Notes: generated by a model not told the origin, from the letters alone. Shown: positions 39,889 to 57,694, counted from the first letter of the stretch. The stretch is 64,000 nucleotides of DNA from Candidatus Nezhaarchaeota archaeon (GCA_025059375.1 JANXDO010000004.1:124001-188000); one strand, 5' to 3'. A program made the numbers and translations.

Positions 39889-40203
39889 ATGACAGAATCG
39901 AAAGCCCTACGAAGATTAAGAGACAAACTAACAAAAGAGAACCTCTGGCTCTACATAATAAGGGAGCTAGCAGAGAAGCCCATGTACGCATACCAAGTCA
40001 AGGTTACCTTGAAGGAGAAGTACAACATCGATGCAGCCACCGTAACCGTATATACAGTCCTATACAGGATGGAGAGGGAGGGGCTAATAACTAAGGTTAA
40101 GGTTAATGAGGACAAGCTATACAAGCCAACGGATGAAGGGTTAAAGCAATTTGAGATGGGTCTCACGCTCATAAGTGAAGTCATGGAGAAGCTACGTAGA
40201 TAA
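39889..40203 (+). CDS. PadR family transcriptional regulator
   Basis: 104 residues. The winged helix is ENLWLYIIRELAEKPMYAYQVKVTLKEKYNIDAATVTVYTVLYRMEREGLITKVK, with the Y-x-Y-x-V-K and TVYTVLYRMEREG core of PadR proteins, followed by a short C-terminal dimerisation helix. PadR regulators often repress genes for phenolic or multidrug handling. It lies 118 bases upstream of the transhydroxylase-like operon on the same strand and divergent from ino1, so either could be its target. Confidence 0.9.
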   Translation: MTESKALRRLRDKLTKENLWLYIIRELAEKPMYAYQVKVTLKEKYNIDAATVTVYTVLYRMEREGLITKVKVNEDKLYKPTDEGLKQFEMGLTLISEVMEKLRR

Positions 40204-40321: not shown

Positions 40322-42955
40322 ATGTGTGTGGAAAGAGTGGAAAGAAGCGATGAAATGAAGATATGCTACATAAGCCACGGGCTCGGTGGCGTTGGAAGCT
40401 CAGCAGAACCTCTTGAAGCTCACGTTAAAAACGGTAAGATAATAAGGATTAGACCTGTTTACTTCAAGGGTGTTAGACTATACGAGATAAGAGCGAGGGG
40501 TAAGGTCTTCACTCAACCACCAAAAAGCTTACCATACTGGGTTAGCTTAGCATACAAGAAGCGAACATTCTCACCAAATAGAGTCCTATACCCACTAAAG
40601 AGAGTAGACTTTGATCCCAATGCCCCCCCAGAAAGAAGAAACACGCAGAATAGAGGTAAGAGCCCCTTCGTGAGGATATCGTGGGAGGAGGCAATAGACA
40701 TAATCGTTAAGGAGCTTAAGAGAATCAAGGAGAAGTACGGCTTGAGAGCTGTTCTAGTTCAAGATGACGGTCACGGTCAATGTGGCTTCATACAGACCCC
40801 CCACGGCATACACCATGAGCTATTCCGCTACCTAGGAGAGTGGACAATGCAGGTAAGGAACCCGGATAGCTGGGAGGGCTGGTACTGGGGTGCAAAGCAC
40901 GTATGGGGTATGGAAGGGCTACATGCAGGACTACCTCATCAAGACGCAATATTCGACGATATACTCGAGAACTGTGAAGTGCTCATCTTCACAGGCTGCG
41001 ATCCCGAGACAACTGTAGCTGGATTTGCAGGACAAATAGGCTCAGTAATGTGCAACTGGATAAAAGAAGCTGGAATAAAGATAATAGCTATAGCGCCAGA
41101 CTGCAACTTCGCCACAGCCATTCACGCTGACAAGTGGATACCAATAAGACCCAATACCGATGCAGCCCTCTACCTGGCAATAGCTTACGTCTGGATAAAG
41201 GAGGGGACCTACGACAAGAAATTCCTAGAGACTCATACAATAGGGTTCGAGGAGTTTAAGAGGTACGTGATTGGTGAGGAGGACGGGGTACCTAAGACCC
41301 CTGAATGGGCCGAGAGGATCACAGGGGTCCCAGCTAGAATTATAAAGGCTCTAGCTAGAGTATGGGCAAAGAAGAGGACATCAATAGCAAACTTCTTTGG
41401 AGGACCCAAAATAAGAGGACCATACTCACACGAACCTGCAAGGCTAGAGGTCATAGTTTTAGCAATGCAAGGGCTCGGTAAACCTGGAAGACAATTCTTG
41501 AGAGGATTCTACATGGCTGCTACCGGAAAGAGGATTGCACCAATACCACAATACCCAGACATTACTGGGACATTCGTCGGCAACCCGCTAGCTAGATACA
41601 CCGTTACATGTGCTGACGCACCCTACATAGTCCCCAAGGTCCTGGTACACGAAGCAATACTTAACCCACCAATAACTTGGTATGGCACTGGGGCGATAGC
41701 CGACACCAGAGAGAATCAATTCCGTAAATACGTATTTCCACCACCAGGTCATCCAGGGATACGAGCAATATGGAACGCAAATTGCTGCTACATAACCTGC
41801 TGGAACAAGAAGGTTCTAGATGCCTATAGAAGCCCCAACATAGAGTTCGTGGTAGCTATAACACCATGGCTTGAAAACGAGGCCATATACGCCGACATAA
41901 TACTACCAGCTCAAACGATACTGGAACACGAAGACATGATACTCTCAACTAGATCAGCTGTGAGCGCAGTCACCTATCAAGATAAGTGTATTGAACCATT
42001 AGGTGAATCAAAGAGCGACTACGAGATAGCACGCTTAATAGCAGAGAAGATGGGTATAGGAGATAAATTCCCACCACCAGAGCAACTCATGAAGCAGCTG
42101 TATGAGAGAATGTGGCCAAAAGTCAAGTATGGAATAAGCTGGGAAGAATTCAAGAACAAGAGGAAGATTGTGGTTGCCGATCACCCAACGTGGGAGGAGT
42201 GGAAGAGAATACAGAAGGATATAGAGGCTAAGTACGGCTTGACCTGGGGCTCAAGACCAGGGTTGACGTGGTTCTACGAGCTACCAGAAGGTAAGGGGCT
42301 AGAAACTCCAACAGGAAAGCTAGAGATAGTATCAACAGGCTTAGCTAAGCACTTCCCAGACGATGCTGAGAGACCATCAATGCCACGCTGGATATCATAT
42401 GGTGAAACTCATCAAGAGAGCCTATTCCACCCAAGAGCCAAGAAGTACCCATTAATCCTAATGTCGAATCACCCAAGGTGGAGGTTCCACGCTCAAGGCG
42501 ACGACGTAACTTGGATCAGAGAAATACCTACAGCAAAGATTAAGGGTCCAGATGGCTACTACTATGAGCCCGTATGGATACACCCAATGGATGCAGCTAA
42601 GAGAGGAATAAAGCATGGCGATATAGTTAGAGTATACAATGAGAGAGGGTCAGTACTATGCGCAGCTTACGTGACTGAGAGGATAATACCTGGAGCTGTC
42701 CACGTGCACCATGGATCCAGAGCTGACTTAATATCAATAGATCCACTAATAGATAGAGGAGGAGCCATAGACCTAATAGTCCCTGAGAAGCCGACATCAA
42801 AGAACACTGTAGGTCAAGTATGTAGTGGAGTCCTAGTTGAAGTGGAGAAAGTAGACATATTCGAGCTTATGAAGCAGTACCCCGAATCATTTAAGAGAAT
42901 GTTGCACCCCGATGTTGGGGTATGTCGCGACACCTGGATTAAGGAGGTGGCATGA
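40322..42955 (+). CDS. Molybdopterin oxidoreductase, transhydroxylase-like catalytic subunit
   Basis: 877 residues of the DMSO reductase family without the usual N-terminal Fe-S cysteines. NPDSWEGWYWGAKHVWG (about 180-196) matches the active-site stretch of pyrogallol-phloroglucinol transhydroxylase, where the Ser binds the metal and the Asp is catalytic. Other family segments are IFTGCDPETTVAGFAG, LPAQTILEHEDM, PTGKLEIVST and LILMSNHPRWRFHAQGDD (pterin-binding). There is no Tat signal, so it is cytoplasmic. The size is nearly the same as the bacterial enzyme as I recall it. ATG 40355 is a possible alternative start. The substrate is inferred to be a hydroxylated aromatic or similar compound; not proven. 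Confidence 0.82.
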   Translation: MCVERVERSDEMKICYISHGLGGVGSSAEPLEAHVKNGKIIRIRPVYFKGVRLYEIRARGKVFTQPPKSLPYWVSLAYKKRTFSPNRVLYPLKRVDFDPNAPPERRNTQNRGKSPFVRISWEEAIDIIVKELKRIKEKYGLRAVLVQDDGHGQCGFIQTPHGIHHELFRYLGEWTMQVRNPDSWEGWYWGAKHVWGMEGLHAGLPHQDAIFDDILENCEVLIFTGCDPETTVAGFAGQIGSVMCNWIKEAGIKIIAIAPDCNFATAIHADKWIPIRPNTDAALYLAIAYVWIKEGTYDKKFLETHTIGFEEFKRYVIGEEDGVPKTPEWAERITGVPARIIKALARVWAKKRTSIANFFGGPKIRGPYSHEPARLEVIVLAMQGLGKPGRQFLRGFYMAATGKRIAPIPQYPDITGTFVGNPLARYTVTCADAPYIVPKVLVHEAILNPPITWYGTGAIADTRENQFRKYVFPPPGHPGIRAIWNANCCYITCWNKKVLDAYRSPNIEFVVAITPWLENEAIYADIILPAQTILEHEDMILSTRSAVSAVTYQDKCIEPLGESKSDYEIARLIAEKMGIGDKFPPPEQLMKQLYERMWPKVKYGISWEEFKNKRKIVVADHPTWEEWKRIQKDIEAKYGLTWGSRPGLTWFYELPEGKGLETPTGKLEIVSTGLAKHFPDDAERPSMPRWISYGETHQESLFHPRAKKYPLILMSNHPRWRFHAQGDDVTWIREIPTAKIKGPDGYYYEPVWIHPMDAAKRGIKHGDIVRVYNERGSVLCAAYVTERIIPGAVHVHHGSRADLISIDPLIDRGGAIDLIVPEKPTSKNTVGQVCSGVLVEVEKVDIFELMKQYPESFKRMLHPDVGVCRDTWIKEVA

Positions 42956-42956
42956 A

Positions 42957-43835
42957 GTGGGCAAGGTCTTCGTTATAGACATCTCTAAATGCAATGGATG
43001 CTACGATTGTCAAATAGCGTGCAAGGACGAGCATGTCGACAATGACTGGAGCCCATACACTAAACCTCAACCAGATACAGGACACTTCTGGCTTAAGATA
43101 TTTGAGTTTGAGAGGGGCACGATACCCAAGGTAAAGGTAACATACATACCACGCATATGCATGCACTGCGATAATGCTCCATGCATCAATGCCTGCCCGA
43201 TAGGTGCAATAGTAAAGAGGCAGGATGGCATAGTCCTAATAGATCCGCAGAAGTGTAATGGATGTAGAAAATGCATTCCAGCCTGTCCATATCAAGCGAT
43301 ATACTTCAATGACGCCCTCAACATAGCTCAAAAATGCACTGCATGTGCTCACTTAGTTGACGGTAAGGATCCATACATTAAGATTCCAAGATGCGTTGAC
43401 ATATGCCCACACGACGCCATAAAGTTCGGAGATGAAGAAGAGCTTAAAGAGCTAATAGCAAAAGCTGAAACTTTAAATCCAGAATTTGAGGGCAAGAGAC
43501 CATTCGCGATAAGCACATCAGAGAACAAGTACAAACCTAGAGTCTACTACCTAAACCTCCCAAGACCATTCATAGCTGGAGCAGTTTACGATCCCGACGT
43601 TGATGAGTGCGTCGAGGGGGCAAAGGTAACAGCTATAGACGAGCAAACAGGAAAGAAGTGTAAGACTGAAACAGATGAGTTTGGAGACTTCTGGTTTAAA
43701 GAGCTTGAATGGAACCATAGCTACACCATTAAGATAGAGAAAGAGGGCTACGAAACGTGGATACTTGATGGAGTAAGAACGGAAAAGGATGTCAATCTGG
43801 GAGACATACCAATAATAAGAAAAGCAAGAAAATAA
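42957..43835 (+). CDS. Fe-S subunit with transthyretin-like C-terminal domain
   Basis: 292 residues from GTG 42957, preceded by AAGGAGGTGG at ideal spacing; the longer frame from 42912 lies inside the upstream gene. Four Cys sets for [4Fe-4S] clusters are seen: CNGCYDCQIAC, CMHCDNAPCINAC, CNGCRKCIPAC and CTAC ... CVDIC. After residue about 205 a beta domain begins (AGAVYDPDVDECVEGAKVTA ... EFGDFWFKELEWNHSY), a carboxypeptidase-regulatory/transthyretin-like fold. This layout is that of the transhydroxylase small subunit. It carries electrons to or from the Mo/W subunit encoded one base upstream. Confidence 0.86.
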   Translation: MGKVFVIDISKCNGCYDCQIACKDEHVDNDWSPYTKPQPDTGHFWLKIFEFERGTIPKVKVTYIPRICMHCDNAPCINACPIGAIVKRQDGIVLIDPQKCNGCRKCIPACPYQAIYFNDALNIAQKCTACAHLVDGKDPYIKIPRCVDICPHDAIKFGDEEELKELIAKAETLNPEFEGKRPFAISTSENKYKPRVYYLNLPRPFIAGAVYDPDVDECVEGAKVTAIDEQTGKKCKTETDEFGDFWFKELEWNHSYTIKIEKEGYETWILDGVRTEKDVNLGDIPIIRKARK

Positions 43836-43877: not shown

Positions 43878-44047
43878 AGCCCTCACCACCCAATCCATCC
43901 AATTATCGATTGCACAAAACTAAACCGCGGCATCAACCGTCATCGTGATTTACCTAGCACCAGCAAGTTAAACACGCCAAAGCTGATCTTCTACACAAAC
44001 AAAATAAAGCTTCTATGCTGCAATTGTCATTTAAGAGGTTGTCTCAC

Positions 44048-45436
44048 ATGAAGCCATCTCCTGAGGATAAGATTGAAGATCTTAGGGGCATAGTAGGTCC
44101 AGAGAACGTTATTGATAGCAAGCCAGCTCTCCTCATATATGCTAGGGATGCTAGCCCAATGAGGGGGAAGATACCACTAGCAGTTGTAAGGCCCTCAACA
44201 ACTGAAGAAGTTCAGAGGATCGTCATGTGGGCTAACGAGACTAGAACACCAATATACCCTAGAAGTAGTGGTACAAGCTTGTGGGGCGCTGTCCCAGTTG
44301 TTGATGGCAGCGTCGTAGTTGACTTAGCTAAAATGAATAGGGTCATAAGAATAGATGAGAGGAACCTCCTCTGCATAGTTGAACCAGCAATCACGTTCGG
44401 TGAGCTTGAAGCGATCCTAGCTAAAAGAGGCTTTAAGTTCATAATGAGCCCCGAGAACGGTATGGGTGCAACTGTTGGAGGGAACTTTGCAAGTCATGGA
44501 ACTGGCTGGGGCGCAGGCCCCAACTCATCAAATCAAGGAGAATGCGTGTTGGGGTGCAAAGTTGTCCTCCCAACAGGTGAAATATTAACAACTGGCAGCA
44601 TGGCAAATCCCAACTCTCACGGACCATTCTATCGCTATGCCCTAGGCAACGACTTAACAGGTCTATTCTGTGGGTCCGAGGGAACCCTAGGCATAATAAC
44701 AGAGCTAGCCCTCAAGATAGAGGAAGCAAGCGGTGCACTTGGCTTCGCAACGTTTGGATACGATAGTCTAGAAGCTCTTGGAGAGGCAGTGTATAGAGTT
44801 AGGAGGATGAGGATACCAACAATATACGCCTACATATCCACTAGCTGGACCCTAAACATGCTCTTCCCAGAGAAAGCACCTTGGCAACACACAATAAAGT
44901 TCGTGATAGAAGCAAACAACAAGGACATCTTGAACATCGAGCTCAACAGGCTCATGGAGGCCGCGGGCAAAGATGGAACATACCTAGGACCTCAACTCGC
45001 TGAGGAAACGTGGAGAGAGAGGTATAGATGGGTCGGCCTCTTCGGCTATAAACTCGGAATGAGAGCTGCACTACCAATGCACATACCGATAGGAGAAGTA
45101 GGACCCTACTTAAGGGAGATAGAGAAGATATCCCGCGACATCAAGGATAAGTACGGATTAAAGGTTGGTGCTGGAGGATTCGTTTGTGATAGAAGCGTAG
45201 TGGTCATAGTTGTAACCTACTTCAATCCAAGCAGCAAGCAGGAAAGCGAATTAGCATTAAAAGCTTGGCATGAAATCAAGAATAAGCTCCTAGAGCTTGG
45301 AGCATGCCCCTATAGAATGGGAGCCTTATGGGCCGATCAAATGCCAAAATTTGGAGAGTACTACAAGCTACTAAAGAAGTTGAAGAAGCTACTAGACCCC
45401 AATAACATCATGTCCCCGGGCATAATGGGCCTATGA
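44048..45436 (+). CDS. FAD-linked oxidase, GlcD/D-lactate dehydrogenase-like
   Basis: 462 residues from ATG 44048 (GAGG 9 bases upstream); ATG 44015 is an alternative. The FAD-binding PCMH domain is IYARDASPMRGKIPLAVVRPSTTEEVQRIV, YPRSSGTSLWGA, ENGMGATVGGNFASHGTGWGA and CGSEGTLGIITELALKI. The C-terminal FAD-oxidase cap ends DPNNIMSPGIMGL, a family hallmark. It oxidises 2-hydroxy acids such as D-lactate or glycolate. The next gene encodes its Fe-S partner. Confidence 0.92.
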   Translation: MKPSPEDKIEDLRGIVGPENVIDSKPALLIYARDASPMRGKIPLAVVRPSTTEEVQRIVMWANETRTPIYPRSSGTSLWGAVPVVDGSVVVDLAKMNRVIRIDERNLLCIVEPAITFGELEAILAKRGFKFIMSPENGMGATVGGNFASHGTGWGAGPNSSNQGECVLGCKVVLPTGEILTTGSMANPNSHGPFYRYALGNDLTGLFCGSEGTLGIITELALKIEEASGALGFATFGYDSLEALGEAVYRVRRMRIPTIYAYISTSWTLNMLFPEKAPWQHTIKFVIEANNKDILNIELNRLMEAAGKDGTYLGPQLAEETWRERYRWVGLFGYKLGMRAALPMHIPIGEVGPYLREIEKISRDIKDKYGLKVGAGGFVCDRSVVVIVVTYFNPSSKQESELALKAWHEIKNKLLELGACPYRMGALWADQMPKFGEYYKLLKKLKKLLDPNNIMSPGIMGL

Positions 45437-45445
45437 GGTGGAAGC

Positions 45446-46648
45446 ATGGTAATCTTAGAGAATTACGCCAAGCAAATCTATAGGTGTGCTAGATGTGGAT
45501 GGTGTAGAACCTCGGTCTTTGCGGATCAAGGGATACAGAAGATATGCCCAATATACGAGTACCACCCTAAGGGGCCTTGGGAGTTCTTCACAGCTAGAGG
45601 CAGACTCGCCATAGCTCAAGGCCTCCTCGAAGGCGAGATAGACGTTACAAGAGACCTAGTCGAGATAATTTATAGTTGCACAACGTGCGGTGCATGCCAC
45701 GAGATATGTGTCATACACTTCCCAGTGGTCATGAAGGTTTCAAGCGTAGATGAGCTGGACCAGGTAAAGGTCTTTGAGGCTATGCGAGCTGAAGTATTCA
45801 AGAGGGCTCCTGAAATGCTCCTCGAACCACATCGCCGTATAGCGGAGAGGATATCAACGCATAGGAACCCATACGGTGAACCTCACGAAAAGCGATTTAC
45901 ATGGCTTCCAGCAGTCTACAGTCTCCCTAAACAAGGGGGCATCGTCTACTTTACGGGCTGCACATCACCCTACAGGCACCCCGAGATATGTGAGAGCACG
46001 ATTAAGGTCTTAAACAAGGCTGGAATAACCCCAGCCATAATCGATGAGTGGTGCTGTGGATCTGTCCTACTGAGAACCGGTCAATGGGATTACGTGAAGA
46101 CTCTTGCTGAGCACAACCTTGAGGAACTTAAAAGATCTAAAGCCAAGAAGATCATTGCTTCATGCGCAGGCTGCTATAGAACCCTAAAGCTCGATTACCC
46201 AGAGCTCTTAGGAAGTAAATGGGACTTTGAGGTACTCCACGTAACCGAGCTCATCTGGGATTTAATTGAGAGAGGTAGGCTATCAATCTCAGGGCGCTTG
46301 AATCAGAAAGTAACATACCACGATCCATGCCACCTCGGTAGGCACGGTGGAGTCTACGACCCCCCAAGAAACATAATAGAAAGCATCCCAGGCATAGAAT
46401 TCGTTGAGATGAAGCCAACAAAGCAATATGCAATATGTTGTGGTGGAGGTGGAGGCGTAAAATCCGGCTTCAATGAGCTGGCCTTAAGGATAGGGCTAAC
46501 AACAGTTAATAGGGCTAAGGAAACTGATGCAGACATCTTAATCTCTGCGTGTCCATTCTGTAAACGTAACATAGTTGAAGCCATAGAGCTGTCTAGAGCA
46601 GACATAAAGTTTCACGATATAACTGAAGTATTAGCTAAGGTCGTTTAG
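45446..46648 (+). CDS. GlcF/HdrD-like Fe-S oxidoreductase with CCG domains
   Basis: 400 residues, with GAGGTGG upstream of ATG 45446. Two [4Fe-4S] sites are CARCGWC ... CP and CTTCGACHEIC. Two CCG domains follow: DEWCCGSVLL with ASCAGCYRTLK, and ICCGGGGGVKSGF with SACPFCKRN. It is the electron-accepting subunit for the GlcD-like flavoprotein, passing electrons on to quinone, ferredoxin or a heterodisulfide-type carrier. The genes are nine bases apart. Confidence 0.92.
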   Translation: MVILENYAKQIYRCARCGWCRTSVFADQGIQKICPIYEYHPKGPWEFFTARGRLAIAQGLLEGEIDVTRDLVEIIYSCTTCGACHEICVIHFPVVMKVSSVDELDQVKVFEAMRAEVFKRAPEMLLEPHRRIAERISTHRNPYGEPHEKRFTWLPAVYSLPKQGGIVYFTGCTSPYRHPEICESTIKVLNKAGITPAIIDEWCCGSVLLRTGQWDYVKTLAEHNLEELKRSKAKKIIASCAGCYRTLKLDYPELLGSKWDFEVLHVTELIWDLIERGRLSISGRLNQKVTYHDPCHLGRHGGVYDPPRNIIESIPGIEFVEMKPTKQYAICCGGGGGVKSGFNELALRIGLTTVNRAKETDADILISACPFCKRNIVEAIELSRADIKFHDITEVLAKVV

Positions 46649-46684: not shown

Positions 46685-48019
46685 CTAAGACATCAAGTAC
46701 GGGTAAACTTCTCCGCCATGATGAATGATCCCCACTTTAGCATCAAGGCCATGTTCAGCAATAGATGTTTGAAGCGCCTCTAAAACACCGTCAGCATGTT
46801 TAAACCCCAATATCCTCTTCTCCTCAATGCTCAATCTCTTAGATACGCATATACACTTACTTCTAGCTAAACACCTTTTATGCATGAAGAGTCCACTCAA
46901 GCCAACAAGATCCTCTTCACGACCCTCTCTTAATACCCTCTCAACCTCCTCAATACCCCTCTCGCTGTACTTCTCAAAGACCTTGTGGTGGGTGGGTGAT
47001 ATTCCATCAGGACAATCAGTGTAGAGGATCACAATACCGCCATGCCTAACCCCAAATTGAGCATGAACTAAGCCCTTCATGGCCTGCCAGTAGTCTATCA
47101 ACGCTGGGTAGGAGTTGACTATAACTATGTCCGCCAACTCGGGAATACCTCTCCTATAAATGCCCTCAGCGACCTTTACACCCTCTCTAAATGCTGCCCT
47201 CATATCGCCTGCAACGACCTTAACCACTTCACCTCCACGATTAAGAACAACGTTTACTATAAAGTCCAGCCCAACAACCTCAGCTACATCCTCCATCTCT
47301 CGCCTAACCACATTATCAGGGTCCCCCAGGAGCCTTTCAGGTCCAATTAATGCTGCAAGGACATGAGTACGAGCTGTAGTCACCTCACCACACACTCCAG
47401 GCTGAATTATCTTAGCCCCCCCACCATAGCCAGAGCATAGATGTGGAACTATACAGCCAACGCCTATAACTAAGTCAGCCTCATACACCAACTTATTGAC
47501 GTAGACAGGTATACCGCTAGCTGTATCACCAACGTAAACAAGCTTCCCTGAATCCATCCACTCATGATTAAAAACCTCAACCCTCCTAACAACATCCAAG
47601 CCAACGCACTTGACAATCTCCTCCTTAGTTAAGTACCTGTGAGTTCCTAGAGCTATTACAACCTTAATGCGAGAATCTGGAATTCCAGCATAATTAAGCT
47701 CATTAAGTAGCACCGGAACTATCCTATCCCTTGGAGTAGCTCTCGTGATATCATCAACCACTACAACCACATTCATACCTGGCTTAGCAATCTCTCTAAG
47801 AGGTCTAGAACCTATTGGATCCCTCACAGCCTCCACAACAGCCCTAACCACATCATCTACACCTGGGACATCTCTAGGCGCAACCTCATACACTACATTA
47901 CCACCATACCTCCGCTTAACCGCCTCAATCTCTGAAAGCCACTCCTCAAGAAATCTAGACGGCTCAAGTAAGCCCATAACTAAAATCACATCCTCTAACT
48001 CTAGTGCAACATACCTCAT
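46685..48019 (-). CDS. larA: LarA family (lactate racemase-like) protein
   Basis: 444 residues. The start is ATG 48019: a TATA box at 48041-48047 is 22 bases upstream, so a leaderless transcript is likely, and the longer TTG frame lies upstream of that promoter. Motifs include VVVDDITRATPRDRIVPV, ALGTHRYLTKEEI, FNHEWMDSGKLVYVG and VPHLCSGYGGGAKIIQPGV, holding the His and Lys residues that carry the nickel-pincer cofactor. LarA interconverts 2-hydroxy acid stereoisomers. It is convergent with the GlcF-like gene. The cofactor genes larB, larC and larE are not in the window. Confidence 0.9.
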   Translation of the reverse strand: MRYVALELEDVILVMGLLEPSRFLEEWLSEIEAVKRRYGGNVVYEVAPRDVPGVDDVVRAVVEAVRDPIGSRPLREIAKPGMNVVVVVDDITRATPRDRIVPVLLNELNYAGIPDSRIKVVIALGTHRYLTKEEIVKCVGLDVVRRVEVFNHEWMDSGKLVYVGDTASGIPVYVNKLVYEADLVIGVGCIVPHLCSGYGGGAKIIQPGVCGEVTTARTHVLAALIGPERLLGDPDNVVRREMEDVAEVVGLDFIVNVVLNRGGEVVKVVAGDMRAAFREGVKVAEGIYRRGIPELADIVIVNSYPALIDYWQAMKGLVHAQFGVRHGGIVILYTDCPDGISPTHHKVFEKYSERGIEEVERVLREGREEDLVGLSGLFMHKRCLARSKCICVSKRLSIEEKRILGFKHADGVLEALQTSIAEHGLDAKVGIIHHGGEVYPYLMS

Positions 48020-48040
48020 TAATGTTCCCAGAGAAGAACG

Positions 48041-48047
48041 ATTTAAA
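48041..48047 (-). promoter_or_regulatory. TATA box of the LarA-family gene
   Basis: TTTAAAT on the minus strand within GGCTTTAAATCG lies 22 bases upstream of ATG 48019, the normal archaeal spacing to a transcript start at or next to the start codon. Confidence 0.55.
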
Positions 48048-48061
48048 GCCCCCAACCCCAA

Positions 48062-49440: not shown

Positions 49441-49486
49441 AAGACCTTGACTATAAATATTCGGTTACCTATTGGAGGGGCATAAA

Positions 49487-50068
49487 GTGACCAAAAAAAT
49501 AATTAAAAATAATAAAGCTATAAGCCCAGTCATAGCAACCATAATAATTGTTGCAGTAGCAATAGTATTGTCAATAGCAGTCGCATACTGGATGATGGGC
49601 GTAACGACAACGCTAACAAGGTACGAGAAACTAGAATTCATATCAGCATACCCCATTAAAGCCAACTATATAAATTGGACTGGTGATAAACATGCTAATG
49701 TTCCAGTATTTAATATAACCATTGTCGTGAAGAATACTGGTACGTCGCCTGCAACTGTGACTAAGTTCTTCTTAAATGGGGTTCCGGATGACTACATAAA
49801 TGTAACGTCACAAAGATTCCTTAACTATACTGCACACAATGTCTCGTGCGGCCTCATAGTTGAATTCTATGATGATACTCAAGCTAGGCTTTTCAATTTC
49901 ACTAGTACCACCGTCACCATAGCTCCAGGAGAAACGCGTATGTTCAAGATCATAATCGCGGAGAATGCGCTTATTGGCATTGGCAGAGCTGTGTCGGGTG
50001 TCTCATTGGAGATAGTTATTCACACTGCTGCTGGATATGAGTACCCGAAGATCGTAGTCCTACCATAG
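49487..50068 (+). CDS. Archaeal type IV pilin-like protein (major pilin candidate)
   Basis: 193 residues from GTG 49487, six bases after GGAGGGG; the earlier TTG 49472 lies before that site and was rejected. The class III signal is MTKKIIKNNKA then ISPVIATIIIVAVAIVLSIAVAYW, with cleavage expected before ISPV. The rest is a beta-rich domain with several N-x-S/T sites (NWTG, NVTS, NFTS), likely N-glycosylated. It is followed by a T-rich terminator and hairpin, suggesting higher expression than the downstream genes. Most likely the main pilus subunit. Confidence 0.88.
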   Translation: MTKKIIKNNKAISPVIATIIIVAVAIVLSIAVAYWMMGVTTTLTRYEKLEFISAYPIKANYINWTGDKHANVPVFNITIVVKNTGTSPATVTKFFLNGVPDDYINVTSQRFLNYTAHNVSCGLIVEFYDDTQARLFNFTSTTVTIAPGETRMFKIIIAENALIGIGRAVSGVSLEIVIHTAAGYEYPKIVVLP

Positions 50069-50076
50069 CCCTCACA

Positions 50077-50121
50077 TTTTTTAGTGAAGTTTTTATCCTT
50101 GATCCTCTAATTTTTTAGAGG
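50077..50121 (+). terminator. T-rich terminator and hairpin between pilin and ATPase genes
   Basis: T6 (50077-50082) and T5 (50090-50094) tracts are followed by a hairpin CCTCTAA-TTTT-TTAGAGG (50104-50121). Archaeal polymerase stops at T-tracts, so partial termination here would raise pilin output over the machinery genes. The hairpin may also shield the leader of the ATPase gene. Confidence 0.6.
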
Positions 50122-50139
50122 CGGCTTAGAGGGTTTAGC

Positions 50140-51720
50140 GTGAGGTTGCGTGAGGCTTTTAGATCCCTATTCTCTAAAGGTAAGGTTGTTTCCACTCCAC
50201 CACCAGTTGCCGTATTCTCTAAGCTCCCCGAGGATGCTGAGGTTATCGATTCTTATGATGTCCACCCTCCATTCTCAAGGGTGATAATAGCATCCCTTCC
50301 AGAGCTCGGTGGCGAGGAGGCTTACTTCGTTGAGGAGGTTGAGCTCCTACCCGAGGAGCGCGCCATACTGGACAAGCTCATTGACATAATGGGCGTCGAG
50401 GTGGAGCCTCCAGAGGAGGGCGTAGACCCGTACAAGCACGTTGAGGCTGAAGCCTCTCGATTGGCCAGGAAGTACGGCTTGACCAAGCACCTTAAGCGCT
50501 TAGGCGAGGCCTCTTGGCCGAAAATACTCTACTACCTCAAGAGAGACTTTGTGGGATTTGGTCCATTGCACGTCATAATGAGTGATAGGATGATCGAGGA
50601 CATATCCGTTAACGGCCTCAACATACCGATCTACGTTTGGCACAGGAAGTACGAGAGCATGCCAACTAACGTCAGCATAGTCGACGAAAAGACTCTCGAC
50701 AACATCTTAGTAAAGCTCGCGCACCTCGCTCAGAGGCACATATCGACAGCATTCCCAATACTCGACGCAATGCTTCCGACCAAGGACAGGCTCGCAGCAA
50801 CATTTAGGTACGAGGTCTCGCCCAAGGGTAGCACGTTCTGCATAAGGAGGTTTAGGGAGGAGCCATTCTCCATAGTGGACTTGATAGAGCTCGGGACGAT
50901 GGATGAGATGCTAGCTGCCTACTTCTGGCTGATGGTTGAGCACAGGATGACGGTGATGGTCATAGGCGGGACCGGTGCGGGAAAGACTACGACGCTCAAC
51001 GTCCTAGTGAGCTTGGTTAAGCCGTCTATGAAGCTGGTGACTGTTGAGGAGATACCCGAGCTAATGATACCACACAGCAATTGGGTCCAGTTGGTCAGTA
51101 GGATGAGTTATGGGCTGGGTGCTCTAAAGATTGGCGAGATATCTCTATTCGATCTAGTCAAGGTCTCCTTAAGGTATAGACCAGACTACATAATAGTGGG
51201 TGAGATTAGGGGCGAGGAAGCCTTCGTTCTATTTCAAGCGATGGCTACTGGTCACGGCGGCTTAACAACCCTTCACGCTGAGAGCTTGGAGCACGCGGTT
51301 AAAAGGTTAACTAGCCCGCCTATGAATATAGCTGAAAGCTATATACCACTAATAAACGTTGCAGTGATTCAGGAGAGAGTTCAACTCCCGAAGCCAAGAG
51401 CAGGATTAACCTTTGGTAGGAGGATAAGGGAAGTCTACGAGATAATTGATTATGGTAGGTACGAGAGGATATCGTCTTGGAACCCATTAACGGACACGTT
51501 CATCCACGACTTTACGAGGAGCGAGATGCTCAATAGGATAGCCTTAAAGTATGGCATAGAAATGGAGAGCGTCCTAGAAGAGCTCTCCAGAAGAGCACTA
51601 CTACTCCGCGACTTACTGGTACGTGGAGTCAAGAAGAACGTTGACGTCAGGAGAGAGATAACTAGATACCACCTGCTCAACCCGTTCCCAGCCATTGCCA
51701 TAGGGAGGAGGGCTGGCTAG
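50140..51720 (+). CDS. Type IV pilus/type II secretion ATPase (GspE/ArlI family)
   Basis: 526 residues from GTG 50140. Walker A is GGTGAGKTTTLNVLVSLV. VEEIPELMIPHSNW holds the Asp/Glu box, GEIRGEEAFVLFQAMATGHGGLTTLHAES contains Walker B and the His box, and PKGSTFCIRRFREEPFS is the Arg-rich finger. These are the marks of archaeal secretion ATPases that drive pilin assembly at the inner face of the membrane. The N-terminal 130 residues bind the platform protein. It is two bases from the platform gene. Confidence 0.94.
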   Translation: MRLREAFRSLFSKGKVVSTPPPVAVFSKLPEDAEVIDSYDVHPPFSRVIIASLPELGGEEAYFVEEVELLPEERAILDKLIDIMGVEVEPPEEGVDPYKHVEAEASRLARKYGLTKHLKRLGEASWPKILYYLKRDFVGFGPLHVIMSDRMIEDISVNGLNIPIYVWHRKYESMPTNVSIVDEKTLDNILVKLAHLAQRHISTAFPILDAMLPTKDRLAATFRYEVSPKGSTFCIRRFREEPFSIVDLIELGTMDEMLAAYFWLMVEHRMTVMVIGGTGAGKTTTLNVLVSLVKPSMKLVTVEEIPELMIPHSNWVQLVSRMSYGLGALKIGEISLFDLVKVSLRYRPDYIIVGEIRGEEAFVLFQAMATGHGGLTTLHAESLEHAVKRLTSPPMNIAESYIPLINVAVIQERVQLPKPRAGLTFGRRIREVYEIIDYGRYERISSWNPLTDTFIHDFTRSEMLNRIALKYGIEMESVLEELSRRALLLRDLLVRGVKKNVDVRREITRYHLLNPFPAIAIGRRAG

Positions 51721-51722
51721 GC

Positions 51723-53474
51723 ATGGCATCCTTAACGGGCACAGCTTACCAAAACTTCTGGTGGCTATCAAACGCCCTCATGAAGCTCCTATATCGTGGC
51801 AGACCATCAAAGCTCAGAGACACCCTCGAAGCTGCTGGAATAAAGGTACATCCAGAAGCATACCTATCGGTGGTGGGGCTTTTCTTCTTAATGTCCGTGG
51901 TGGCATCAGCCATCATTGCATGGCTCACAGGCCTTCTTCCAGTCCTAGTAACCCCCATGGTAGTCCTCTTAATAGGCTACATCATCCCGAGCATAAAAGC
52001 TCAGGATAGGGCTGCGAAGCTGGACATGGAGGCACCATTCATGGCAGCCTACGTGAGCGTTATGGCTACTGGAGGCCTCTCACCCTACTCGAGCTTAAGG
52101 AGGTTGGGGAAGTGTGAGCTCCTACCCCACACATCCAAGGTTGCTAGAGAGATAGAGCTCGATGTACAGTTGAAGGGTATGGCGCCAATAGCAGCAATGG
52201 AGAGGTCTGCAGAGAGGGTACCATCGAGGGAGTATAGAGACTTCCTCATGGGCTACATATCAACGCTAAGGGCTGGTGGAGACGTAATACACTACCTCTT
52301 AACAAGAACGGAGACAATGTTTAGAGACCTAGCAGCTAAGATTAGGATATTTGGAGAGCGTGCTGCAATACTCCTAGAGTCTTACGTAGCAGTATTGATC
52401 CTTGGGACTCTCGGCATAAGCGTGCTGTACCTAGTCTCCATAGCGTTTCAAGGCATCTGGCAATTAGGCTTCACTGTTGGGAACTTCCTACTATACTCGT
52501 ACATCCTAGTGCCAGTAATCTCAGTAATCTTCATATACCTGTCAGAGATGTCGAGCTTTCAAGAACCAGTCTATGAGACAGCACCATACAAGGTCTTCGC
52601 TGCATCACTGCCAATAATGATATTCTTAATGCTCATAACAATCCTCCCATACCTCATGCCTGAACTCTCGTTAATGCCATTGATTAGGGAATTCAAGAAC
52701 TTCCTATCACACTTAAGAGCGCTGCTGAACCTAGAGCGCGGATTGGAGCCAGCTATAGGGATGAGCTTGGTCCTGATACTTGGGACGATCCCATCAGCTA
52801 TAGCTCACAGCTACTACAGCCGTCGGAGAGGGAGTAAGATCGTTAAGGAGGTAACAAACTTTCTCAGAGACTTAACTGAAGTGAGGAAGACGGGGGCTTC
52901 ACCAGAAGCTTGTATAACCCAGTTATCATCGAGACCTTACGGGGTTTTCAGCAAGTACCTAAGCGTAGTTGCTAGACAAATTCGATGGGGTCAACCGATA
53001 AGAGTCATATACGAGTCCTTAAAGAGGAAGATAAGCTCTTGGCTAGCCTTAATTAACCTCTACCTCTTAGTTGATGCGATAGAGGTTGGTGGAGGTAGCC
53101 CAGAAACTCTTGAGACTCTCACAAGGTTTGGTGAGATGCAAGCATCACTCGAAAAGGAGAAGATGGCGGCCCTCCGCCCACTAATAATAATGCCCTACAT
53201 GGGCGCTGCAATAATGATATTCTCAACACTCATAATGGTGAGCTTCATGCGCTCAGCAAGCATGGCAATAGCTCGCTCACCAATGCAGTTCATACAGATA
53301 TTGACGGTAATAGTGCCAGCGCTAGTCTTTCAATCCTACCTAATGGGCTTAGTAACTGGAAAAATAAGCGCTGGATGTACTTCAGCAGGCTTTATGCATG
53401 CTATAATGCTTACATTAATAGCGCTACTATCAATAATCCTCGTGCAGTACATCGGCCTCATACTCTTCCTCTAA
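51723..53474 (+). CDS. TadC/ArlJ-type pilus assembly membrane platform
   Basis: 583 residues with two T2SSF-like domains and about nine helices. Each domain has the cytoplasmic helical stretch: MEAPFMAAYVSVMATGGLSPYSSLRRLGK in the first, VTNFLRDLTEVRKTGASPEACITQL in the second. The C-terminal region (MPYMGAAIMIFSTLIMVSF) is membrane. It is the inner-membrane platform that works with the ATPase. The ATG overlaps nothing and follows the ATPase stop by two bases. Confidence 0.92.
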   Translation: MASLTGTAYQNFWWLSNALMKLLYRGRPSKLRDTLEAAGIKVHPEAYLSVVGLFFLMSVVASAIIAWLTGLLPVLVTPMVVLLIGYIIPSIKAQDRAAKLDMEAPFMAAYVSVMATGGLSPYSSLRRLGKCELLPHTSKVAREIELDVQLKGMAPIAAMERSAERVPSREYRDFLMGYISTLRAGGDVIHYLLTRTETMFRDLAAKIRIFGERAAILLESYVAVLILGTLGISVLYLVSIAFQGIWQLGFTVGNFLLYSYILVPVISVIFIYLSEMSSFQEPVYETAPYKVFAASLPIMIFLMLITILPYLMPELSLMPLIREFKNFLSHLRALLNLERGLEPAIGMSLVLILGTIPSAIAHSYYSRRRGSKIVKEVTNFLRDLTEVRKTGASPEACITQLSSRPYGVFSKYLSVVARQIRWGQPIRVIYESLKRKISSWLALINLYLLVDAIEVGGGSPETLETLTRFGEMQASLEKEKMAALRPLIIMPYMGAAIMIFSTLIMVSFMRSASMAIARSPMQFIQILTVIVPALVFQSYLMGLVTGKISAGCTSAGFMHAIMLTLIALLSIILVQYIGLILFL

Positions 53475-53528
53475 GCAAAACAATATGAGGAACTATAAGT
53501 AAAGATAGTGTGGGGAAGCAATTAAGCC

Positions 53529-54290
53529 TTGATTTGCTTTAAGATCCCTCACGGCAAGCCCCTAAATAGGAGGGGTATTTCACCGGCCGTGTCAACAGCT
53601 ATCATAACCACGGTACTGCTAATACTCCTCGCTATAGCATCTGCCTTTGCAATAAACATGCTTGAAATTCAAGCACAAAACATAGAGTTTGAGCAGGCCA
53701 AGACAACAATGCTAATACTCGATAAAACAATAATTGACGTATCCCTAAGACGTGGAGCAGCTAGCACAATAGCTTTCAACCAAAGGAGCGGTGGAATAGG
53801 CATATATGAAGGAGAGAAAATGAGCATGACAATTTCATGTGGCAACTTAAGCTGGAATAGGACGATAACCCCCTACATCATTAAGTACCGTGGGGGAAGC
53901 ATGGTCTCAGCTGTGGAGGTTAATTTAACGGATCCGGGTGGATTAATAGTTAATGACCCATCAAAGCCATTAGGTTACGTTAGAATTGAAGTCGAAGATG
54001 GCGCATGGATAGTGCTAGATTACAATAGAGTGAGAGTTACCATTAATAAGAGGCTTGGAACGATGGATGTATACTTCATTCGCTTAAAGCCAGGAGTTTT
54101 CGCTGATTCTGATACCGTTACTGTCAGGGCTCAAAATAAGGGCATAAACATGGAGACCATGCAGCTCGGGTCAAGTGCTCATGCACATATCTATGTCAGG
54201 GTTGGCGGTCATGAAGGTGCATTCACATCAGATGTAGCCATATCCACTATTAACGTGATAGAGGTCATTATAGAGGTCTCGATAACTTGA
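53529..54290 (+). CDS. Pilin-like secreted protein with class III signal
   Basis: 253 residues from TTG 53529. The N-terminus FKIPHGKPLNRRG precedes ISPAVSTAIITTVLLILLAIASAFAI, a class III signal with cleavage before ISPA. The outside part is beta-rich with glycosylation sites (NLSWNRT, NLTDP) and includes LIVNDPSKPLGYVRIEVEDGAWIVLDYNRVRVTI. It is the first of five small secreted proteins after the platform gene, probably minor pilins. Confidence 0.8.
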   Translation: MICFKIPHGKPLNRRGISPAVSTAIITTVLLILLAIASAFAINMLEIQAQNIEFEQAKTTMLILDKTIIDVSLRRGAASTIAFNQRSGGIGIYEGEKMSMTISCGNLSWNRTITPYIIKYRGGSMVSAVEVNLTDPGGLIVNDPSKPLGYVRIEVEDGAWIVLDYNRVRVTINKRLGTMDVYFIRLKPGVFADSDTVTVRAQNKGINMETMQLGSSAHAHIYVRVGGHEGAFTSDVAISTINVIEVIIEVSIT

Positions 54291-54291
54291 G

Positions 54292-54831
54292 GTGCTAAAC
54301 TTGGTTCATGTATCTATTGAACACGTAATTGGAACTGTTGCCTTGATAGGCTTAGTAGTAGCTGTTGCGTTATCATACCAAATAACTGCTGGATACCTTG
54401 AGGAGAATACGATAAGGAGCCAGCTGAGACAGATGGCAGAGTACGTATCAATGAGCATAGCGAACATAGTTAGCTTAATGGAGTTCACATATGGAGCTCT
54501 CTCAAGTGGAACAGTCTCAAAGAGTTTAAACTTGCCAGCAACGATAGGTGGTGAGCCTTATAACATAACCATAATCGAGAAGAGTGGAGGGTACTATGTT
54601 CACGTAACCATGATTAAAAGAGCCCACTTGCATGCTGAATCATCAATACCAGTAAGCCCAACAAGAAGGCTGCAAGTCTTCACTGGTGAAGAAGAATTGC
54701 AGATAATACTGCACGATGAGAGCATTGAGCCTAGAGCCTGGGTTTGTGGAGGACCATACGCCGTAGTTTGGTGTCAAAAGGAGATTGATGGTGTGGTCTA
54801 TATCGGCTTGGGGGTGCGTAGAGGAGGTTAA
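54292..54831 (+). CDS. Pilin-like membrane-anchored secreted protein
   Basis: 179 residues from GTG 54292, overlapping nothing and one base after the previous stop. The single N-terminal helix is HVIGTVALIGLVVAVALSYQITAGYLEE, followed by a charged amphipathic segment (RSQLRQMAEYVSMSIANIV) and a small beta domain with LQVFTGEEELQIILHDE. It resembles archaeal minor-pilin-like proteins. No signal-peptidase site is clear. It belongs to the pilus operon. Confidence 0.72.
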   Translation: MLNLVHVSIEHVIGTVALIGLVVAVALSYQITAGYLEENTIRSQLRQMAEYVSMSIANIVSLMEFTYGALSSGTVSKSLNLPATIGGEPYNITIIEKSGGYYVHVTMIKRAHLHAESSIPVSPTRRLQVFTGEEELQIILHDESIEPRAWVCGGPYAVVWCQKEIDGVVYIGLGVRRGG

Positions 54832-54838
54832 TTGATGG

Positions 54839-55873
54839 ATGAAGGCTTACGAGTACATATTTGCGGCAATAGTGATGGTTGCGATATTGATGGTAGCCGT
54901 GCACTTAACCAGCATGCTGCCACAGCTCTACATGAGTATATCTGAAGTAGAGCAAGTGAAGATGGCTGCGCAGAAAGTAATGACTCAAATAATTCTAAGC
55001 CCAGGGGATCCAGAAGACTGGGGAGGCAACATAACCGTAAAAGCAGAGGACATGACATCCTTCGGCTTAGCTGTAAGTACGGTCTACACTAGAGACGTCT
55101 TCATTCTAGATCCAGACAAAGTTCAGAGACTAAGTCAAAGAATTCCAGCTGACCTCTTCATACCACCACACGCAGTTAAGATGCTGCTAAACCTTGGCTT
55201 TGAATACGACATAAGGATGGACTTCATACCAGCACTAACTGTTACCATAAATCGAACAAGTCCAAATAATATTATGATTAACGTGTCCCTAGAGCAAGGT
55301 ATACCAGCTCGAAACGCTAAAGTGACCATTGGAGCAATACTCATCGAAGGTGAAGCCATTAGAATCGTAGATTACAAAGGCGTAACCGATGGAAATGGAC
55401 ACTACAACTTGAGACTAAATGTCTCCACCCCACTACTCTTAGTAGTAGCAGATTATCATGGAGTAGTGAGGGTCGTGGTAAAAGCTCTAGGTGACGTAGT
55501 GGCAGCAAACTTTATCGGCAACTCACTAATAGTTGGTCGAGCCTACCAAGTAAGCAAGATCTATCAAGTATTCATCATAAGGCACCTCGATGGATCATTC
55601 AACATCTCCCACATACGCTGTGAAAACTTCACCAAGACCACTGCCGTCAACTACGATGCATACACTATGAGTAGCATTGAACCAAATACCATCCTAATAG
55701 TCGCATTGACCGGAGATGGACGACTAGTAGCTGCATGGAAGGATGTACCAGAGAGCTATAGCACCACAACCGGCGAGACCTACTCACCCTTAGCTTACAC
55801 ACTTGAACGAAATGTTAAGATCGAGCTATCTATGTACACGTTCAGGTTAAAGATATGGAGAACCTCGCTATGA
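54839..55873 (+). CDS. Pilin-like protein with Ig/carboxypeptidase-regulatory-like domain
   Basis: 344 residues. The N-terminal helix YIFAAIVMVAILMVAVHLTSML is followed by the heptad-like SISEVEQVKMAAQKVMTQIIL. A beta domain at about 140-220 (IMINVSLEQGIPARNAKVTIGA ... KGVTDGNGHYNLRLNVS) resembles repeat folds used for cell-surface adhesion. Several N-x-T/S sites suggest glycosylation. Probably a tip or adhesin-type minor pilin; inference from context. Confidence 0.7.
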   Translation: MKAYEYIFAAIVMVAILMVAVHLTSMLPQLYMSISEVEQVKMAAQKVMTQIILSPGDPEDWGGNITVKAEDMTSFGLAVSTVYTRDVFILDPDKVQRLSQRIPADLFIPPHAVKMLLNLGFEYDIRMDFIPALTVTINRTSPNNIMINVSLEQGIPARNAKVTIGAILIEGEAIRIVDYKGVTDGNGHYNLRLNVSTPLLLVVADYHGVVRVVVKALGDVVAANFIGNSLIVGRAYQVSKIYQVFIIRHLDGSFNISHIRCENFTKTTAVNYDAYTMSSIEPNTILIVALTGDGRLVAAWKDVPESYSTTTGETYSPLAYTLERNVKIELSMYTFRLKIWRTSL

Positions 55874-56328
55874 AGTCGAACTCAAAGTTAGGACAAGTAA
55901 GGGTGATAGAGGCAGTCGTAGCCTCAATAATAATGCTAATAATGCTTACAGCAGCCTTCTCCATGCTCTTCTCGTCAGAGAAGTTCTTTAAGCAAGAAGT
56001 TGTTGACTTGAATCGATTAGCATACAACGTCCTACACTACTTGCTAGAATCTAATGTAGTTGAGGAGGCAGTGAGTGAAGAGGGAGCAGTCAACGAACTA
56101 AAGTTGATGAATGTTGTCGAGAGCTTGATACCTCAAAACGTACTATTCAATTTAACCATCTGGGAGCATGAAGTAAATCGATGGAACTTAATCGCCAGCA
56201 TTCACAACACTCCACTCGAAGTCTTTGAAAAAGCAAGTGAGATTGCCTCAGCTGGAGTAACGTACACTTCGAGGAGTGGAAAAATACTCTACTTAAACCT
56301 TATCCTCGTGCGAACTGGGTTAACGTGA
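55870..56328 (+). CDS. Pilin-like protein, 152 residues
   Basis: The start is ATG 55870, overlapping the previous stop as ATGA, rather than the upstream ATG 55855. The product begins MKSNSKLGQVRVIEAVVASIIMLIMLTAAFSMLF, a short polar head and a single helix with V-I-E at the pilin Glu5-like position. The remainder is a small beta/alpha domain with HEVNRWNLIASIHNTPLE. Likely a minor pilin or initiator in the pilus tip complex. Confidence 0.7.
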   Translation: MKSNSKLGQVRVIEAVVASIIMLIMLTAAFSMLFSSEKFFKQEVVDLNRLAYNVLHYLLESNVVEEAVSEEGAVNELKLMNVVESLIPQNVLFNLTIWEHEVNRWNLIASIHNTPLEVFEKASEIASAGVTYTSRSGKILYLNLILVRTGLT

Positions 56329-56347
56329 CCTTCTTCAATCTACCACC

Positions 56348-57694
56348 ATGATCAACACGCTAGGAATATATAGCGAGCTGACTACACTTTTATTGGCTAT
56401 TGCTAGACAAATCAGATGGTTTACCATGAACGGACTTAAATCTAATAGGCGAGGTCAATTCATAATCATTGCGGCCCTCATAATGGCAGGCTTAATGCTC
56501 TCTCTAGTACTATCAATAAGCAAGTTAAGTACGAGTAGGCTTGAATTAGGTTACGAACCTGTGGACGAAACGGCCTTAGCAATAGCAGGTGACTTTGAAA
56601 GGTGCTTAGTGAGAGCATTAGCTACCGCAACAAAGAGGTATAGTGAGACTTGGAATAAGACGTTAGCTGTAACAAGTGGAGAGGAGGTTATAAAGAACTG
56701 GATTAAAGCAACTTTAGAGTCCTATAGCGGCTTCGGCTTAACGATCACCTTAAACCCTGAAAATGAAACAGACATTGGCAGAAACATAGATTGGTGGATC
56801 GATTGGAGTGGAAAACAAGGTAAAAGTGCAGTCTATGCGACCTTCGACATGGACATCGGGACCTATGGCCTAAAGAACCTAGCCGTAATACTACGAAAAG
56901 CATTACGGCTTAACATATTAAACGCCACATCAACAGACAAAACCCTAAACATAACATTCCAAGTCTACTTAAGCGATGAGAGGCATTACTTCCTACCAAT
57001 ACAATACATTACACCAAGCAACTTAAAGCTGCTTGTAAATAGAACCGAGAGTATTAGCTATGAGATTTTAGAGCTCAAATATCTAGGTCAAGGCAATTAC
57101 AGAGCCCTAATCAACTTTACAAGCCCAATTCCAGGAGGAATCAATGTAATCACGTTAATGGTCACCACCAACGATGGGGTAAAGGTTGCAGCAAGCCTAG
57201 AATATAGAGAGTATAGACCTGATGAGTGGCGAGTTTTCTATATTATGTGGGAGAGAGGTAAGGAGCATTTCGTTTTAGTGCGTCATGAGCCGGAGGAGCA
57301 CCACATAGTTCTGAGCCATGCCAAGACAAATAAACGGGGAAATTCGACTGAGATAACCCCAACATTACGCCTCGGCGATAATGTGACCATAATCCTATAC
57401 GTTACAGCTCGTGGGAACGCGTCCAAAGTTCTTAATGTAACCCTAGGAATATATGACGCTAATGGCACCTACTATAGAATTGGTAGTGTCAACATCACCA
57501 TAGCTGGTCACACCAATACACCCATATCTTACACTATAAGGTTAACACCAGAAATACAATACATACCTTCAGGTAGCAGATTAACCTTAAACTTTACACT
57601 AACCATTGAGAAGGACCCTAGTGGTAGGGGGGATGACAGGGGTGGAGGCGCCTTACATATACATTGTGGTCCTTCAAGGATAATACTTTGGTGA
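56348..57694 (+). CDS. Pilin-like large secreted protein
   Basis: 448 residues from ATG 56348; ATG 56426 is an alternative that would place the signal at the very N-terminus. The anchor is NRRGQFIIIAALIMAGLMLSLVLSI, which in other archaeal pilus loci marks a pilin-like protein. A long beta-rich outside region follows, with many N-x-T/S sites (NETD, NATS, NVTL, NFTL). The C-terminal IEKDPSGRGDDRGGG is a flexible tail. Last gene of the pilus operon. Confidence 0.72.
   Translation: MINTLGIYSELTTLLLAIARQIRWFTMNGLKSNRRGQFIIIAALIMAGLMLSLVLSISKLSTSRLELGYEPVDETALAIAGDFERCLVRALATATKRYSETWNKTLAVTSGEEVIKNWIKATLESYSGFGLTITLNPENETDIGRNIDWWIDWSGKQGKSAVYATFDMDIGTYGLKNLAVILRKALRLNILNATSTDKTLNITFQVYLSDERHYFLPIQYITPSNLKLLVNRTESISYEILELKYLGQGNYRALINFTSPIPGGINVITLMVTTNDGVKVAASLEYREYRPDEWRVFYIMWERGKEHFVLVRHEPEEHHIVLSHAKTNKRGNSTEITPTLRLGDNVTIILYVTARGNASKVLNVTLGIYDANGTYYRIGSVNITIAGHTNTPISYTIRLTPEIQYIPSGSRLTLNFTLTIEKDPSGRGDDRGGGALHIHCGPSRIILW

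Follow-up and report, generated by a model that had tools for sequence, protein, structure and literature searches.

The 64,000-nucleotide window analysed here is part of contig 4 of a Candidatus Nezhaarchaeota genome (1.47 Mb, 96% complete). At positions 40322-43835, where the first-pass annotation had placed the large and small subunit genes of a pyrogallol-phloroglucinol transhydroxylase-like enzyme, we found both reading frames exactly as described, overlapping by 44 bases; their products are referred to as P0001 and P0002. The nearest named relative of P0001 is from Candidatus Nezhaarchaeota isolate JZ-3_D_bin_91, with 82% identity in this gene. The two genes, the codons discussed below and the neighbouring genes are:

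39889..40203, plus strand: PadR-type regulator (Pfam), from its position only a possible local regulator.
40322..42955, plus strand: P0001, catalytic subunit, 877 aa, AthL/RhL family clade A, with a predicted Ser-ligated Mo/W-bisPGD (Pfam, phmmer, Foldseek, trees).
40772..40774, plus strand: codon for His151 in the motif GHGQ, corresponding to AthL His144 (alignments).
40859..40882, plus strand: codons for NPDSWEGW (residues 180-187), in which Asp182 corresponds to AthL Asp174, Ser183, the predicted metal ligand, to Ser175 and Trp184 to Trp176 (motif position, conservation).
41552..41554, plus strand: codon for Tyr411 in IPQYPD, an uncertain candidate counterpart of AthL Tyr404 in FPGYAE (spacing after GKPG, PxYx[ED] pattern).
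42912..43835, plus strand: P0002, small ferredoxin-like subunit, 307 aa, with four [4Fe-4S] Cys sets and a C-terminal transthyretin-like domain at about residues 218-303 (Pfam, phmmer, alignment, model).
44015..45436, plus strand: FAD_binding_4 flavoprotein, 473 aa, similar to GlcD, D-lactate dehydrogenase and VAO (profiles, sequence matches); its link to the enzyme is suggested by position.
45446..46648, plus strand: CCG-domain Fe-S partner, TfrB/GlcF-like, 400 aa, starting 9 bases after the flavoprotein (profile matches).
46685..48061, minus strand: LarA-type nickel-pincer 2-hydroxyacid racemase, malate-racemase-like, convergent and of uncertain functional link (family matches; also nearby in the related locus L033).

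Further downstream of the enzyme, the genes at 49472-57694, identified by inspection of the sequence as those for a secretion ATPase, a membrane protein and pilin-like proteins, resemble an archaeal cluster for a type IV pilus or for secretion.

Domains, folds and clusters of the two subunits

Pfam matches of P0001 (PF00384, PF01568 and PF21423) included the molybdopterin domains and, with a score barely over the cut-off, the AhtL-like domain 1 model. As the first-pass annotation had stated, the large subunit lacks the N-terminal Fe-S cluster: the first 110 residues contain only Cys2 and Cys15, and the Molybdop_Fe4S4 profile did not match. In phmmer searches against solved structures, the best match of P0001 was AthL (4v4c_A; E 3.8e-140, 471 bits, with the next enzyme at 241 bits) and that of P0002 was AthS (E 2.5e-53, 184 bits, with the next match at 119 bits), values that exclude a chance likeness. 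The AlphaFold model of P0001 (pLDDT 87, pTM 0.90) likewise had AthL as its best Foldseek match (E 1.9e-72, TM 0.84). His151, Asp182, Ser183 and Trp184 were invariant in an alignment of 31 sequences, which bears out the earlier assignment of Ser and Asp in NPDSWEGW to the metal-ligand and catalytic positions of AthL. Since no twin-Arg pair was present in the first 40 residues of P0001, the enzyme is taken to be cytoplasmic.

After AthL, the best matches of P0001 by both sequence and structure were MtsZ, DorA and TorA, enzymes with the same Ser ligand, as would be expected if P0001/P0002 reduced S- or N-oxides in the manner of DMSO and TMAO reductases. We consider such an activity very improbable, given that these scores are half those to AthL, that P0001 falls under the NCBIfam cut-offs for DorA, TorA and BisC, and that S/N-oxide reductases formed the outgroup with 100% support in both trees described below, their rows missing both the NPDSWEGW motif and His151.

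The 16 cluster Cys of P0002 fall into four sets (27/30/33/37, 83/86/91/95, 115/118/121/125 and 142/145/161/165). With the usual Cys pairing in such subunits, Cys 95, 115, 118 and 121 hold one cluster. The corresponding residues in AthS are G, A, K and L, so AthS has one cluster fewer than P0002; the first-pass annotation was thus correct in setting three clusters in the bacterial enzyme against four here. The C-terminal domain matched CarboxypepD_reg (PF13620, 1.2e-10), a transthyretin-like family, in addition to the ferredoxin domains found by Pfam. The AlphaFold model of P0002 was weaker than that of P0001 (pLDDT 63), with a confident C-terminal domain that matched the transthyretin-like structure 5aq0 (target-normalised TM 0.79), and AthS was the best match of the whole chain.

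Two clades and the residues that separate them

The main alignment comprised 110 large-subunit sequences plus an outgroup of three proteins, drawn from 80 named loci, archaeal genomes and plasmid records. The resulting tree divided the large subunits, with full support for each clade, into clade B (AthL and 15 others) and clade A. Besides P0001, clade A holds 93 sequences; these come from TACK archaea, Chloroflexota (RBG Chloroflexi and Dehalococcoidia proteins among them), Desulfobacterota, Actinomycetota, Bacillota, Pseudomonadota, Myxococcota and Acidobacteriota. A second, slower tree with a site-mixture model (37 rows) gave the same split, and joining P0001 and its two closest kin to AthL was rejected (AU p 2.6e-6). 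Phylogeny therefore groups P0001 with AthL apart from the outgroup but outside the AthL clade; judged from sequence, P0001 is a member of clade A, sister to clade B. No clade-A protein with an assayed activity came up in a literature search that took in few subscription journals.

The residue patterns follow the same division. AthL His144, Ser175 and Trp176 are kept in both clades, as is Asp174 in all rows except the clade-B protein L032. His145, Tyr152, Tyr404 and the loop residue Tyr560 are common to all 16 clade-B rows and Trp147 to nearly all, while neither His145 nor Tyr560 occurs in any clade-A row. P0001, which has the counterparts of His144, Asp174, Ser175 and Trp176, lacks His145, Trp147, Tyr152 and the Tyr560 loop, some of which presumably line the substrate pocket. 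The status of Tyr404 is less clear. The P0001 subclade has PxYx[ED] at the place and spacing of FPGYAE in AthL, so that Tyr411 is a possible counterpart, although this segment was unaligned in the larger alignment and the P0001 model has low confidence at 399-402.

The small subunits differ in a similar way. The four Cys corresponding to P0002 Cys 95, 115, 118 and 121 are absent in 11 of 11 clade-B small subunits, AthS included. In clade A, Cys95, Cys115 and Cys121 are kept in 60 of 67 and Cys118 in 54 of 67. The cluster absent in AthS is also missing from clade-A small subunits of Sporomusa, Gordonibacter and Coriobacteria (L062, L071, L109, L110 and L112), in a loss apparently independent of that in AthS. 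Because the clade-A exceptions include this group, the fourth cluster has been lost more than once, and cluster number by itself does not separate reactions. The transthyretin-like tail, which had been put forward as a hallmark of the transhydroxylase, is present as claimed; however, it is general in clade-A small subunits and missing from the clade-B subunits of this genome (G000) and of G121, and is thus not diagnostic of AthL/AthS.

These comparisons bear on whether P0001/P0002 is a genuine pyrogallol-phloroglucinol transhydroxylase, moving hydroxyls between phenols without net redox. AthL and AthS are the best matches, the metal ligand, catalytic Asp and His are kept, and the candidate Tyr411 resembles Tyr404 in motif and spacing. 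Nevertheless, the position in the sister clade, the four missing AthL elements, the additional cluster in P0002 and the presence of a far closer AthL ortholog in the same genome (described below) make this identity improbable. The designation as transhydroxylase-like therefore holds for the family, AthL/AthS being the nearest solved relatives by sequence and fold, and is not borne out for the specific enzyme.

Gene neighbourhoods and a second pair in the same genome

The flavoprotein downstream of P0002 can be aligned over its full length with D-lactate dehydrogenase, although its sequence matches favoured neither phenols nor hydroxyacids as substrates. Its counterpart in the related locus L033 is 80% identical; the complete set of molybdopterin (MopB), FeS, flavoprotein, CCG and LarA genes recurs there. 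Such conservation, together with the LarA family match, would be expected if P0001/P0002 formed a unit with these proteins and acted on a 2-hydroxyacid or some other oxygenated, non-aromatic compound, and the neighbours in the window, GlcD-like flavoprotein and LarA, fit 2-hydroxyacids as much as aromatics, which counts against an aromatic substrate. We regard a 2-hydroxyacid enzyme as unlikely all the same, if somewhat less so than a transhydroxylase. A gap of 179 bases separates P0001/P0002 from the flavoprotein/CCG pair, close orthologs in G121 and G316 are without such a neighbourhood, and the fold and kept residues of P0001 are those of a phenol-transforming enzyme.

FAD and CCG pairs lie beside clade-A genes in the window, in L033, in L124 (from G316) and in two Dehalococcoidales loci (L055 and L073). 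The G316 ortholog of P0001 (78% identical) is followed by genes for a PF04199 cyclase, an SDR, a thiolase, an OB-fold protein, an enoyl-CoA hydratase and a CoA-transferase; the PDB match names of this SDR show no special likeness to phloroglucinol reductase. A cyclase and an SDR are also near clade-A genes in L038 and L101, cyclases of this kind being present at only 6 of 91 loci, and Hdr-like and other MopB redox genes are near those in L123 and L127. Overall, the context of the window gene and its relatives is consistent with ring compounds and names no substrate. In the two Dehalococcoidales loci (L055:1-18529 and L073), the clade-A gene was seen together with two flavoprotein/CCG sets, an HpaB-type enzyme and a UbiX-like flavoprotein, in what looks like a putative aromatic degradation cluster.

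P0001 was at first read as the AthL ortholog of this genome, a reading overturned by a paralog search. A second pair, at G000:C2:20328-22907 and following (L010:8328-10910, large subunit; L010:10876-11487, small subunit), has a large subunit that matches AthL over nearly its full length at 1006 bits, compared to 471 bits for P0001, and keeps the AthL-clade residues; its small subunit is of the three-cluster type without a transthyretin-like domain. As far as sequence can tell, this pair is the true AthL/AthS ortholog of the genome. It is flanked by MFS transporters, and the same transporter family is found near clade-A genes of sulfate reducers. In a 398-genome sample of the phylum, orthologs of clade B were detected in G000, G121, G316 (two copies) and G100; nine genomes encode clade-A proteins, with the G100 match counted as clade B. 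In G121 (C1; L027 / L125:8850-12107), AthL and AthS share a single open frame of 1086 aa, which reflects either fused genes or an error of assembly.

In Clostridium scatologenes, the phloroglucinol route involves an SDR reductase, a hydrolase of the 'cyclase' family, a 3-hydroxyacyl-CoA-dehydrogenase-like (3HCDH) enzyme and a BKACE-type enzyme (PMC10470551). A BKACE protein encoded elsewhere in the genome of the window (L118:9023-9970; G000:C2:326026-326967) scored 450 bits against a curated cut-off of 430 for 3,5-dioxohexanoate:acetyl-CoA acetone transferase, the only such match among the 398 genomes, and adjoins two putative CoA-transferase subunits (named by reading the sequence). The genome also encodes 3HCDH proteins and two cyclases; a search for a solved relative of the cyclase found none. 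No SDR was detected in this genome, which thus lacks a phloroglucinol reductase of the known kind. A full pyrogallol-to-acetate route was considered, with AthLS, the 3,5-dioxohexanoate-cleaving enzyme and cyclases present, and rejected for want of the SDR; by known enzymes, the predicted route is incomplete.

The related archaeon G316 (loci L144, L145 and L146 on contigs C5 and C4) has two AthLS copies. One lies ~11 kb from genes for an SDR, a BKACE protein, a 3HCDH protein, two CoA-transferase-like subunits (~80% identical to those encoded in the genome of the window) and an acetoacetate-CoA ligase; the BKACE protein is under the phloroglucinol-enzyme cut-off, while the ligase is over its own. 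The other copy has a cyclase directly upstream. The AthLS locus of G316 is a good candidate for an archaeal pyrogallol/phloroglucinol route, though one that would concern the paralog and not the window gene.

Proposed function and comparison with known systems

Based on the position of P0001 in the sister clade, the missing clade-B residues and the fourth cluster kept in P0002, we propose a redox-linked aromatic hydroxylase or dehydroxylase. More specifically, we favour, with a probability only slightly better than even (about 0.55), a Mo- or W-bis(pyranopterin) enzyme for which hydroxylated aromatics or similar ring compounds would be the substrates, a hydroxyl group being added or removed with net redox change; of the possibilities raised in the first-pass annotation, a related dehydroxylase or a new substrate is our best guess. 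In such an enzyme, Ser183 would bind the metal, Asp182 and His151 (perhaps with Tyr411) would handle protons at the substrate, and the four [4Fe-4S] clusters of P0002 would pass net electrons between the metal and an external partner. A transhydroxylase, by contrast, would have no need of the unbroken four-cluster wire, which probably serves net electron transfer. Several points weigh against the proposal: apart from the neighbours in the window and the repeated loss of the fourth cluster within clade A, the genome has no SDR, cyclase genes are rare near clade A, and the literature searched gave no assayed clade-A enzyme. P0001/P0002 is a securely placed member of a known family, on a sister branch that differs in residues near the active site, and its cluster set is intact; what we infer from this is the function, namely an aromatic substrate, a net redox reaction and its direction, and a link with the flavoprotein/Fe-S pair downstream.

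Several TACK archaeal lineages carry genes of the AthL branch and of its sister, whereas a 2023 survey of the superfamily assigned none of its 285 RhL/PgtL matches to Archaea and argued that RhL/PgtL reactions arose only after land plants (PMC10100899). 'Pyrogallol hydroxytransferase' genes of Chloroflexi were named by similarity, and the passages on them draw no line between clade A and the AthL clade (PMC3971608, PMC4959651). Should the chemistry of the sister branch prove distinct, this name would be wrong for many genes of sediment Chloroflexi, sulfate reducers and Actinobacteria that now bear it, and if the archaeal AthLS and phloroglucinol genes work, archaea would break down polyphenols without oxygen. 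A broader and more tentative proposal, which we think less likely than not, is that clade A comprises unrecognised, widespread redox-active aromatic hydroxylases and dehydroxylases, lumped by annotation with pyrogallol transhydroxylase, which in thermophilic TACK archaea would stand alongside a genuine AthLS and a partial phloroglucinol route in an undescribed anaerobic polyphenol metabolism.

Among known systems, catechol dehydroxylases act on phenols and form, with acetylene hydratase, a clade of the same superfamily separate from AthL (PMC7028382); acetylene hydratase (2e7z) is a far weaker match to P0001 than AthL by sequence (E 2.1e-21 compared to 3.8e-140) and by fold. Resorcinol hydroxylase RhL/RhS, compared by its published description, is Ser-ligated and cytoplasmic, as P0001/P0002 is predicted to be. 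It is grouped with PgtL and catalyzes a net redox hydroxylation of a phenol (PMC10100899), a reaction that would fit an intact cluster wire. P0001 belongs to the RhL/PgtL family in the broad sense, being Ser-ligated, without an N-terminal cluster and placed with AthL apart from S/N-oxide reductases. AthL/AthS of Pelobacter acidigallici (PgtL, PDB 4v4c) shares with P0001/P0002 the fold, the lack of an N-terminal cluster, the Ser ligand, the Asp-Ser-Trp motif, the His144 counterpart and a small ferredoxin-like subunit with a transthyretin-like domain. It differs in its clade, in having His145, Trp147, Tyr152 and the Tyr560 loop, and in lacking the fourth [4Fe-4S] cluster that P0002 keeps.
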